Of a stretch of 57,652 bases of DNA, positions 17,398 through 23,755 are shown in pieces. The stretch is from positions 1-57,652 of the forward strand of contig JAGALB010000025.1 of NCBI GenBank assembly GCA_017625405.1. Reading direction: 5' to 3'. Numbering within the stretch: the first letter of the stretch is position 1; every line of letters begins with the position of its first letter. This DNA is from Ruminiclostridium sp. GTDB taxonomy: Bacteria > Bacillota > Clostridia > Oscillospirales > Ruminococcaceae. Under the pieces are notes generated by a model. It ran no database searches and was not told the origin of the DNA. It was given only the letters and a program-made list of their open reading frames with translations. A program made the translations under genes and the position numbers.

Positions 17398-17423
17398 TGT
17401 AAGATTCTGTAAATTTTGTCGTC
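17398..17423 (+). promoter_or_regulatory. Candidate ECF-type promoter of the sigma/serpin operon
   Basis: TGTAAG (17398-17403), 16 bp, CGTC (17420-17423). This matches the general ECF pattern (an AAC-like -35 and CGTC -10) and there is no sigma-A pair here, so the sigma factor probably drives its own operon. A second TGTAA copy at 17408 is noted. Confidence 0.5.
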
Positions 17424-17447: not shown

Positions 17448-18005
17448 ATGGAAGACAGCATGATAATTGAAATGTACTGGAACAGAAATGAATCCGCAAT
17501 TGAAGAAACTGACAAGAAATACGGAAGCTACTGCTTTGCTGTTGCAAACAACATCCTGAACAGCAAGGAGGATTCGGATGAATGCGTCAATGACACATGG
17601 TTAAGAGCATGGAATGCAATTCCGCCGAAAAAGCCTGAACGCTTCAGAGTTTTTCTTGCCAGAATCACACGCAACCTTTCCTTTGATAAATATAAGATGA
17701 AAAACGCATCCAGACGAAAAGGCGAAATGCTTTATATTCTCGATGAACTTTCGGAATGTATTTCATCAGGCAGTACTGCCGATGATGAGCTGGATATGAA
17801 GCTTCTTTCCGAAAGTATAAACAGTTTTCTGAAAACAATTTCCGAGCGTGACAGAACGGTTTTTCTCAGACGCTATTTTTACGCAGAAGCTGTAACAGAA
17901 ATCGCAGAACGTATGGACATCACTCCGAACAACGTTTCGGCGATTCTTGCACGCTCAAGAGCAAAACTGCGTGAACATCTCACAAAGGAGGGTTTTGAAA
18001 TATGA
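17448..18005 (+). CDS. ECF-type RNA polymerase sigma factor (serpin-linked)
   Basis: The product has 185 residues from ATG 17448, with AAAGGGGG about 6 nt upstream; the frame is open to 17424 but without a site. Region 2 shows NILNSKEDSDECVNDTWLRAWNAIPP and FRVFLARITRNLSFDKYKM; region 4 shows ISERDRTVFLRRYFYAEAVTEIAERMDITPNNVSAILARSRAKLREHL. It differs clearly from the other ECF factor in this window. Its stop overlaps the next start (ATGA), so translation is coupled to a membrane-anchored serpin that is the expected anti-sigma partner. The upstream TGTAAG-N16-CGTC element suggests autoregulation. Confidence 0.93.
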   Translation: MEDSMIIEMYWNRNESAIEETDKKYGSYCFAVANNILNSKEDSDECVNDTWLRAWNAIPPKKPERFRVFLARITRNLSFDKYKMKNASRRKGEMLYILDELSECISSGSTADDELDMKLLSESINSFLKTISERDRTVFLRRYFYAEAVTEIAERMDITPNNVSAILARSRAKLREHLTKEGFEI

Positions 18006-19573
18006 ATGAAAATCAGATTTTTGAAGCTATCGGCGAAGCTGATGACGAAATGCTCAGTTCTGTGTCAGAATACAGAAAACAAAAAAACACATGGATTAAA
18101 ATTGCAGGAACTGCTGCGGCTGTATGTGTCGTTGCAGCAGTGATACTGGCTGCAAAAATGCTTGCGGATAATACAGGGATAACAGCTGAAGCACCACATG
18201 ACACAACGGCAGGAAATCCGCTTACAACAACTACTGTACCCTGCGGTTCTGCACTTCATTCAGACAATTGTACGGAGAAAAATATGGAAACATACTCACC
18301 TGAAACAAAGGCTATGCTTTTATCGGCAGCGGAATATCCTGATATGCCCCGGTATCCTGTTGAATTTTCTGAGGATTTTGAAGCTCAGTATGACGCATGG
18401 CAGAATTTCAGAAATGAATACAGAAGAGAAACACCCAAGGATTATAAAGATTCCGCAAACCGTTTCACCGCAGACAGCATGAAAGTGTTCCTTACAGATT
18501 CGGGAAATGAAAATAAACTTGTTTCACCTGTTAACATCTATTTTGCACTGGGCCTGCTTGCGGAATCTTCCGACACAAGCAGCAGACAGCAGATTCTTGA
18601 CCTGTTTGGTGCAGACAGTATCGAAACATTGAGAGAATACTGCAGCTCAATGTGGAAAACCAACTATTCGGATGACGGAGCGCTTACAACGGTATTTGCA
18701 AATTCAGTATGGCTTTCCGATTCATTGAACTATAATATGAAAACACTTGAACTGCTCTCTGACAGCTACTATGCAGACAGCTTTTCGGGAAATATGTCAG
18801 ATAAGGCATATACGAAGGCTTTTCAGGAATGGCTGAATGTCAAAACAGGCGGTATGCTGGAAAACGAGGCAAAGCAGCTGGAATTTGACCCGCAGACTGT
18901 TTTTTCCCTTGCCTCCACTGTTTATTTCCGTGGAAAATGGCAGGATGAATTCAATCCTGAAAATACTCAGAGTAAGATATTTACAACATCTGACGGCAAA
19001 CAGGTTGAATGTGACTTTATGTGCCGCGAAAGAGAGTCTTATTACTACTGGGGCAAGAATTACGGTGCCATGAAAATGTCATTCGACGGAACCGCAAGTT
19101 CTGAAATGTGGGTATTTCTTCCTGATGAGGGCGTTACAACCGATGAGCTTATAGAAAGCGGAGAAATAAACAAGCTTATAGAAGATAACCGTTTTGATTA
19201 TCCCGACTCAAGAAGACTCATAATAAATTTCCAGATACCGAAATTTGATACGGCATATACAACCGACCTGAAAAAAGGACTTAACGAATTAGGTGTTACA
19301 GATATATTTGACGGCAGCAGCGCCGACTTCTCCCCTATGCTTGAAAATGCTCCCGAGGGTACCGCTTTATCCAAGGCACAGCATTCTGTAAGAGTCGCCA
19401 TTGACGAGGAAGGCTGTACCGCTTCCGCCTTTACAGCTATGATGATCTGCGGTGCTGCAATGCCACCTGACGACAGAATGGATTTCATTCTTGACCGCCC
19501 CTTTGTTTTCGTTATCCAGAGTGATTCAAACGATACACTTTTTGCAGGTGTAATAAATAATCCCACAAATTAA
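18002..19573 (+). CDS. Membrane-anchored serpin with anti-sigma-like N-terminus
   Basis: The product has 523 residues, with AAGGAGG 10 nt upstream inside the sigma gene. Residues 1-30 form a charged cytoplasmic helix (NENQIFEAIGEADDEML), about 31-53 a membrane segment, and about 60-100 a Thr/Ser/Pro linker with two Cys (81, 90). From about 150 to 520 it is a serpin: PVNIYFALGLLAES, NSVWL, SLASTVYFRGKWQDEF, KAQHSVRVAIDEEG, DRPFVFVIQ and FAGVINNP. The reactive-centre loop aligns without gaps to alpha-1-antitrypsin from Gly471 (P15) to Pro488-489, giving P1-P1' as Ala485-Ala486. Serpins trap serine or cysteine proteases irreversibly. Here the trap is tied to the outer face and to a sigma factor, so cleavage could signal protease attack. 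That mechanism is inference. Confidence 0.9.
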   Translation: MNENQIFEAIGEADDEMLSSVSEYRKQKNTWIKIAGTAAAVCVVAAVILAAKMLADNTGITAEAPHDTTAGNPLTTTTVPCGSALHSDNCTEKNMETYSPETKAMLLSAAEYPDMPRYPVEFSEDFEAQYDAWQNFRNEYRRETPKDYKDSANRFTADSMKVFLTDSGNENKLVSPVNIYFALGLLAESSDTSSRQQILDLFGADSIETLREYCSSMWKTNYSDDGALTTVFANSVWLSDSLNYNMKTLELLSDSYYADSFSGNMSDKAYTKAFQEWLNVKTGGMLENEAKQLEFDPQTVFSLASTVYFRGKWQDEFNPENTQSKIFTTSDGKQVECDFMCRERESYYYWGKNYGAMKMSFDGTASSEMWVFLPDEGVTTDELIESGEINKLIEDNRFDYPDSRRLIINFQIPKFDTAYTTDLKKGLNELGVTDIFDGSSADFSPMLENAPEGTALSKAQHSVRVAIDEEGCTASAFTAMMICGAAMPPDDRMDFILDRPFVFVIQSDSNDTLFAGVINNPTN

Positions 19574-22708: not shown

Positions 22709-23755
22709 ATGAAAAAGAACAGATTTACATTATTTACAGCAGCGCTTATTGCTTCAGCCTTCGCACTCTCTTCCTGCGGAACCGATAACGCTGCACAGAC
22801 CACTACAACAGAACAGACAACCACAACTACTACCGTGGCTACAACAACCGAACCTGTTGTTGAAACTCCTGCGACCCCTGTTGCATATCACGGTGAAATG
22901 ATTGCTGACGGCAACCGTCTTATCGGCTCAAAAACAGGCGAAGTTGTCCGTGTAACAGGCATGAGCTTTTTCTGGAGCAACTGGTCACAGAAATACTACA
23001 ACGCTGATTATGTTGACCTTATGATGGATGATTTCGGTTGTGAGGTTGTACGTTGTTCTTATGGCATTCAGGATGACGGCGTTCCTTACGACAGAAGCTG
23101 CGAACCTCTTATCGAGGACGTTATCGAAGCTGCTATCGACAGAGGTCTTTACGTACTTATCGACTGGCATTCTCATGGTGCACACAAGAATCCCGATGAA
23201 GCCGTTGCTTATTTCAGCCAGCTCGCTGAAAAATACGGCGAATACGATAATGTTATTTTTGAAATTTACAACGAGCCTATGAACGTAGGCTGGGACGATA
23301 TCAAGGAATACGCAGAAATTGTAATTCCTGCTATCAGAGAGCATTCCGACAACCTTATCATTGTAGGTACTCCCAACTGGTCACAGCAGGTAATGGATGC
23401 TGCCAACAATCCTGTTGTCGGCGACAACATTGCTTATGCACTTCACTTCTACGCAGGCACGCACAAGCAGTGGCTCAGAGATAATGCCGACAAGGCTATC
23501 GCAGCAGGCATTCCCCTTTTCGTAACAGAATGGGGCAGCGTAAATGCTGACGGCAACGGTGGTGTAAATGACGAGTCAACTCAGGAATGGTTTGAATGGA
23601 TTGACAAAAACCAGCTTTCAAGCTGTAACTGGGCAATCAATGATAAAAACGAAGGCTCAAGCATTTTTGTCAAGGACAGCGAATACAGCGAAACAGGCAA
23701 CTACATCAAGGCTCTCATCGATGAGCGCACAAAGGATGCTGCCTGGAGAAATTAA
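22709..23755 (+). CDS. GH5 endo-glucanase lipoprotein (cellulase)
   Basis: The product has 348 residues. It has a lipoprotein signal (LSSCG, Cys23), a Thr-rich linker (24-55) as in ruminococcal surface enzymes, and a GH5 subfamily 2-like barrel (about 60-340). Signatures are TGMSFFWSNW, VRCSYGIQ, YVLIDWHSH, IFEIYNEP with acid/base Glu189, ALHFYAGTH and VTEWG with nucleophile Glu274. It should cut internal beta-1,4 bonds of cellulose or related glucans at the cell surface. No carbohydrate-binding module or dockerin is present, so the enzyme is membrane-tethered rather than cellulosomal. It follows the AraC regulator and has its own promoter and structured leader. Confidence 0.94.
   Translation: MKKNRFTLFTAALIASAFALSSCGTDNAAQTTTTEQTTTTTTVATTTEPVVETPATPVAYHGEMIADGNRLIGSKTGEVVRVTGMSFFWSNWSQKYYNADYVDLMMDDFGCEVVRCSYGIQDDGVPYDRSCEPLIEDVIEAAIDRGLYVLIDWHSHGAHKNPDEAVAYFSQLAEKYGEYDNVIFEIYNEPMNVGWDDIKEYAEIVIPAIREHSDNLIIVGTPNWSQQVMDAANNPVVGDNIAYALHFYAGTHKQWLRDNADKAIAAGIPLFVTEWGSVNADGNGGVNDESTQEWFEWIDKNQLSSCNWAINDKNEGSSIFVKDSEYSETGNYIKALIDERTKDAAWRN

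Follow-up and report, generated by a model that had tools for sequence, protein, structure and literature searches.

A putative membrane anti-sigma factor with a serpin ectodomain encoded behind an ECF sigma factor in Ruminiclostridium and its relatives

In a 57,652-nucleotide stretch of DNA from Ruminiclostridium sp. (GCA_017625405.1, contig JAGALB010000025.1; here called the window), the gene for an ECF sigma factor runs directly into a gene for a membrane protein that carries a complete serpin domain. This raises the question of whether the second protein is the anti-sigma factor of the first and, if it is, what a serpin does at the outer end of such a regulator. Below we describe the gene pair, follow its N-terminus, its serpin and its regulator through related genomes, and put forward a hypothetical mechanism.

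The gene pair in the window

The features of the locus, all on the forward strand, are as follows.

17398..17423, +, putative ECF-type promoter TGTAAG-N16-CGTC, matching at 9/9 positions, 24 nt upstream of the ECF start
17448..18005, +, ECF sigma factor, 185 aa, regions 2 and 4 by Pfam
18002..19573, +, putative membrane anti-sigma factor with a serpin ectodomain, 523 aa, ATGA overlap with the ECF stop
18002..18094, +, cytoplasmic N-terminus, residues 1-31, putative sigma-binding segment, homologous to N-termini encoded behind sister ECFs
18095..18151, +, transmembrane segment, residues 32-50, hydropathy 2.33, positive-inside
18452..19564, +, serpin domain, residues 151-521, PF00079 E 3.5e-66
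19406..19492, +, hinge and reactive-centre loop, residues 469-497, inhibitory-type hinge residues
19583..19614, +, intrinsic terminator-like stem-loop, 12 pairs of which 6 G-C, after both genes

The ECF gene begins with ATG at 17448 and its stop ends at 18005, and the serpin reading frame begins at 18002, giving an ATGA overlap. Overlaps of this type (ATGA, GTGA or TTGA) are found in 58 of 74 pairs of what we call class A, the window's module of an ECF of its subfamily and a serpin with the anti-sigma-like N-terminus. The first-pass annotation, which had described an ECF gene overlapping one for a 523-residue protein, had the gene limits right. Pfam places Sigma70_r2 (E 6.8e-10) and Sigma70_r4_2 (E 8.1e-09) in the first product, for which TIGR02937 scores 79.2 bits against a cut-off of 42.9, and the serpin match in the second is complete, covering profile positions 2-370 of 370 within 523 residues; by sequence, its best solved structure is the conserpin variant 6ee5 (E 1.2e-36). 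The topology that the same annotation had read from the letters, a single membrane segment with a full serpin outside the cell, is borne out by this match, by the hydropathy of the segment and by its flanks, where the 12 residues before it hold three K/R and the 12 after it one; K/R are more numerous before than after the segment in 79 of 82 proteins. About 100 residues separate the segment from the serpin domain, which is the only serpin match in the genome. Elsewhere in the window, positions 22709-23755 encode a lipoprotein that by eye resembles a family 5 glycoside hydrolase.

The promoter-like site TGTAAG-N16-CGTC that had been proposed is indeed located ahead of the ECF gene. Since the pattern was derived from the window, the window itself is no independent evidence for it. 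At 8/9 positions or better the pattern occurs in 16 of 74 class A upstream regions, window included, as against 1.3 in shuffled sequences and 4 when the reverse strand is read; the spacing is 16 in 13 of these 16 sites, and the other 58 upstream regions fall below 8/9. Across the genome there are three exact matches, of which the window's is the only one found directly before a gene and one lies inside open reading frames, compared with seven for a reversed control, so that there is no genome-wide enrichment and we claim no genome-wide regulon. For the ECF-serpin operon itself, the site suggests that autoregulation may occur. The terminator-like stem-loop is supported by its place rather than by its count, since one was found where shuffled sequences average 2.1.

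Recurrence of the pair and ancestry of the N-terminus

The first-pass annotation had suggested looking for the same gene pair elsewhere, and it is present both in relatives and in more distant genomes, a recurrence that rules out chance adjacency. A PF00079 profile search over 99 genomes, our own included, followed by reading of the neighbourhoods of the matches, recovered serpins in 45 of 98 relatives (46 of 99 genomes with the window's own; at L055 the serpin was not recovered on re-search), and in 16 of the 98 the serpin gene directly adjoins an ECF gene. In a 17th relative (G091, locus L002) the ECF overlaps the serpin but is disrupted. In three genomes (G059, G023 and G036; loci L037, L042 and L052) the order is reversed, with the serpin first and the ECF directly downstream. 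A profile built from 16 proteins (A1, of which one member, L046, has no ECF) and run against 394 genomes of the order, own included, gave a strong match that includes the N-terminus, beginning within the first 7 profile positions, in at least 40 of them, and among 30 loci fetched the ECF lies directly beside the serpin in 25, at 232 bp in one, and is absent in four. ECF-linked serpins are also present in the isolates Flavonifractor sp. An112 and AGMB03687 and Cuneatibacter sp. NSJ-177, found among the best 80 of 448 relatives in a scan of named genomes, a set that is not a population sample because its ranking followed similarity to the window protein. When 398 genomes of the phylum were scanned and 29 fetched loci read, one class A pair outside the class (L289) and three serpins with another ECF (L286-L288) emerged.

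A downstream effector gene was rejected. Among the 69 class A loci whose serpin is followed by 1 kb or more of sequence, a search for reading frames of at least 100 aa starting within 600 bp found no conserved third gene, the largest cluster comprising four loci with a second serpin (at L103) as its representative. Serpin genes do occur in tandem: L103:4001-6913 has one ECF and two serpins, L118:1306-5236 two ECF-linked serpins in a row, and L138:1009-5290 three unlinked serpins in a row.

The N-terminus, with the family motif AIGxIDDxxIxxA, has no match to a curated anti-sigma domain above cut-off in the window protein and 10 relatives. On the window, DUF4179 (E 0.18-0.5) stays below cut-off, as does NF038083 (E 0.0043) where a cut-off is shown; the best Pfam value for these N-termini is E 0.0044 and for those of class B, the 11 loci at which a different ECF overlaps or adjoins a serpin with an N-terminus of another type, E 0.0024, none reaching the cut-off where one is shown. 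The evidence for its nature comes instead from sister ECFs. The subfamily is expanded, with four members in the genome of the window (L198-L200 besides the window's own) and up to 20 matches per relative (L210-L236). At 33 subfamily loci that were read, namely the four own loci and 29 of many matches, the gene behind the ECF encodes a serpin in 9 (among them L233, already known from L030) and another protein in 24. For 19 of the latter, the gene that follows the ECF hits the N-terminal profile with E 0.01 or lower; for the other five (L199, L215, L227, L229 and L234) it has no such match. NF052375, "anti-sigma factor", is the best NCBIfam match for the non-serpin partners (E 0.03), without reaching its cut-off. 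When 11 serpin N-termini were aligned by hhalign with those of 14 among the 24 non-serpin partners, the result was 98.9% with the membrane segment and 97.8% for the first 28 residues, and the class B N-termini, used as a control, gave 92.2% with the segment and 0.5% without it, so that only the figure without the membrane segment is informative. It should be noted that the profile was built from serpins picked mostly by ECF linkage and that the 14 non-serpin N-termini were chosen, and hence these tests are not fully independent. The large ectodomains behind the sister ECFs gave no Pfam match in the three examined (L198, L210 and L213). The window's ECF/anti-sigma subfamily bears several ectodomains, of which the serpin is one.

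The N-terminus and the ECF also occur together. Among 190 serpins, with duplicates removed, 73 have both, 107 have neither, 5 have the N-terminus only and 5 the ECF only. The five with the N-terminus only are two at contig edges (L143 and L056), the second tandem copy at L103, a serpin 232 bp from its ECF (L179) and the orphan L046, and the 107 with neither include 12 with a second ECF type (11 of class B and L002). When 40 more loci were added and rows of at least 330 aa kept, 228 serpins scored for the window's module gave 77 with both N-terminus and class A ECF, 5 with the N-terminus only, 3 with the ECF only and 143 with neither; an ECF of this subfamily thus seldom stands beside a serpin that lacks the N-terminus (3/146). 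ECFs lying farther off were scored as unlinked, at 157 bp (L304) and at 801-1057 bp (L010, L020 and L045), all beside serpins that lack the N-terminus. At L304 (G1058:C9) the ECF match ends upstream of a lipoprotein-like serpin. In a FastTree phylogeny, in which 75 of 225 inner branches are weak, the N-terminus distinguishes the members of 11 independent pairs placed on supported branches, and the ECF is concordant in 9.9 of 11 on average and opposite at most once (median p 0.002, range 0.001-0.039). The tree requires 21 changes between the linked and unlinked states, at least 13 of them by well-supported branches. In 75 class A pairs, distances between ECFs correlate with those between N-termini (rho 0.427) and not with those between serpins (0.071), and the partial correlations are 0.422 and 0.001, respectively, with none of 500 permutations as high. 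This indicates that the sigma factor and the N-terminus travel together and that the serpin is the exchangeable part.

The first-pass annotation had counted serpins without an ECF neighbour in related genomes as evidence against its reading. Such serpins do occur, but they lack the N-terminus, and in the window serpin's own clade many of the forms without it carry a lipobox (judged by eye), for which reason they are no argument against an anti-sigma factor.

Serpins behind other regulators and their reactive-centre loops

Serpins are joined to regulators of more than one kind. The class B ECF was confirmed by Pfam in L123 and L127, and a further ECF type, likewise checked by Pfam, lies beside the serpin at L049. 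The ECFs of L286-L288, recognized by a profile built here only, are 26-32% identical to class A members, have an N-terminus of their own behind them and are perhaps distant relatives of class A. On the minus strand of L002, at about 915-2598 of the reverse complement, an ECF gene broken by frame changes, a pseudogene or an assembly error, is followed by a serpin of a distant, mostly secreted type that here has a cytoplasmic N-terminus and a membrane segment. At L271:1439-3504 (G350:C45) the coupled regulator is a non-ECF XRE-sigma4 hybrid, in which sigma region 4 is joined to an XRE helix-turn-helix and region 2 has no match, and its gene overlaps by 4 bp that of a membrane-anchored serpin of distant type. 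This locus comes from a class-wide serpin scan in which 30 loci and 35 regions picked by ORF length were read, and it is the only one of the 35 with an overlapping regulator. In the tree, class A and class B serpins are intermixed in one clade, and those of L271 and L002 lie elsewhere; because of this mixing, and although branches there are weak, the modules have probably been exchanged. Unlinked serpins at L256-L262, L239, L241 and L243-L244 have widely varied N-terminal parts that by eye resemble solute-binding, S-layer or dockerin-like domains.

Inhibitory serpins are recognized by Gly at P15 and small residues at P14, P12 and P10. A hinge of the inhibitory type is present in the window protein, in 83 of 85 class A serpins, in 11/11 of class B, in 3/3 others and in 128 of 129 unlinked serpins. 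Within class A, P15 is Gly and P12 and P10 are small in 85/85. At P14, 49 of the 85 have Cys and 34 Val, in contrast to the Thr (71 of 93) or Ser (17) that prevails in distant unlinked serpins; at P9, Phe or Tyr is present in 80. These two departures make inhibition uncertain. P1, counted as 14 residues from P15, is Ala in the window protein; one of Ala, Ser, Gly and Thr occupies it in 78 of 85 class A serpins and in 109 of 129 unlinked ones, although with a position fixed by residue count the actual cleavage site may differ, as in the Siropins. Measured from P17 up to the residue preceding DRPF, the loop is 29 residues long in 61 of 85. A small P1 would suit elastase- or subtilisin-like enzymes.

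Known systems, a hypothetical mechanism and its alternatives

An ECF sigma factor with a membrane anti-sigma factor is a known kind of system, and what sets the present pair apart is the serpin ectodomain. RsiV has an ectodomain of the DUF3298 type, whereas the ectodomain here is a serpin whose target would be a protease and whose capture would be irreversible, and the DUF4179 match here is non-significant. RsgI is reportedly autoproteolysed, unlike the protein in our proposal. RsiV, which acts on sigma-V of B. subtilis, is a lysozyme receptor and inhibitor that sets sigma-V free (PMC5014341; PMC6066255), lysozyme binding exposing a signal-peptidase site before a site-2 protease acts (PMC6066255). 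The likeness is that of a membrane anti-sigma factor of an ECF with an ectodomain that binds and inhibits an attacking host enzyme and with regulated proteolysis, features that here are predicted (PMC5014341; PMC6066255). RsgI-type anti-sigma-I factors of cellulolytic clostridia share the extracellular sensor module but control sigma-I and not an ECF and detect polysaccharide with carbohydrate-binding ectodomains (PMC12484212). Anti-sigma factors of the BAS1627 type, of ECF30, are also ECF anti-sigma factors of Firmicutes, and they are described with a DUF4179 region and another ectodomain, with no serpin (PMC6066255). The Siropins of gut clostridia share the serpin fold and inhibit neutrophil elastase and proteinase 3; they are predicted to be intracellular and extracellular, and the accessible text mentions neither an anti-sigma N-terminus nor a sigma factor (PMC5127057). 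The ECF-serpin pair is absent from the available portions of PMC10059941, PMC12484212 and PMC5127057, and open-licence PMC text, the scope of the search, to which subscription papers and preprints do not belong, contained no description that we found of a serpin as an ECF anti-sigma ectodomain.

We consider it highly probable that the window's serpin protein is an anti-sigma factor. We now propose that the two genes form a self-contained signalling operon, a mechanism that draws on sequence comparison and that we regard as reasonably likely as a whole. Residues 1-31 of the serpin protein would bind the sigma factor in the cytoplasm, and the serpin domain outside would both sense and inhibit serine proteases that tolerate a small residue at P1, with elastase-, proteinase-3- or subtilisin-like proteases as candidate targets. 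Sensing of extracellular serine proteases by this domain seems likely, and it probably inhibits them as well. Protease attack would use up the serpin or cut the long linker, and the remaining stub would become a substrate for regulated intramembrane proteolysis, by which the sigma factor is freed. The freed sigma factor would then transcribe its own operon, so that spent serpins are replaced. Sigma binding, inhibitory activity, the target protease, protease capture, sigma release and autoregulation are steps that we infer. The genome does encode a site-2 protease homologue (PF02163, E 1.9e-59), but so do 14 of 14 control genomes, and its presence is therefore weak evidence.

What the first-pass annotation had envisaged, an anti-sigma factor with a serpin ectodomain, is upheld by the N-terminal homology, by the covariation with the ECF and by the serpins behind other regulators. 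The other half of its proposal, that the membrane helix relays a change in serpin shape to the sigma-binding segment with no proteolytic step, is not supported. Serpins do undergo a strong shape change upon cleavage, as is established, but membrane segment and serpin match are 39 to 194 residues apart (82 proteins; median 68.5), which makes mechanical coupling implausible and favours proteolytic release as in RsiV; we reject rigid transmission on this ground and give such a helix-borne signal hardly any chance. Just as slight are the prospects of an ordinary operon in which the ECF drives a membrane-anchored protease inhibitor that plays no part in ECF control: the promoter-like site and the overlapping genes would fit it, but the N-terminus covaries with the ECF and is homologous to that of the proteins encoded behind sister ECFs, whose ectodomains differ.

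Two further readings accept the anti-sigma factor and differ in the role of the serpin. It could be bait and no inhibitor, with a cut in its loop or in the linker, and the loss of the ectodomain alone, freeing the sigma factor. The atypical Cys or Val at P14, the aromatic P9 and the long, variable linkers would agree with this, but bait has no need of a conserved hinge, and the invariant Gly at P15 and small residues at P12 and P10 make it improbable in our view. Alternatively, the serpin could be a surface effector only, the release signal being some other envelope stress acting on the linker or the membrane segment. The lipobox forms without an ECF in the same clade suggest that the domain works alone at the surface, and the near absence of correlation between ECF and serpin distances points the same way; however, serpins behind several regulators, and other ectodomains in the same place of the paralogues, form the pattern of a sensor slot, and we rate an effector without sensing as unlikely, if less so than bait.

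The essence of our favoured mechanism, proteolytic release upon protease attack, is that sensor and inhibitor are one molecule. In a broader view, which we advance tentatively and with some doubt, a suicide inhibitor serves as the ligand-binding domain, each captured protease destroys one receptor, giving an irreversible count of hits, and the sigma factor, once free, restores the very trap that was consumed. The serpin would then be a general protease-sensing module of anaerobic Firmicutes, plugged into and shared by several regulators, by which we mean the two well-separated ECF/anti-sigma modules, the ECF types of L049 and of L286-L288, and the single XRE-sigma4 hybrid.

If the proposal holds, the system would be a counterpart of RsiV that senses proteases in place of lysozyme, and its design would be that of an irreversible, stoichiometric sensor. 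Gut bacteria would detect elastase-like proteases or those of competitors and answer them with the same molecule, and a class of gut serpins would gain both a role and a mode of regulation.
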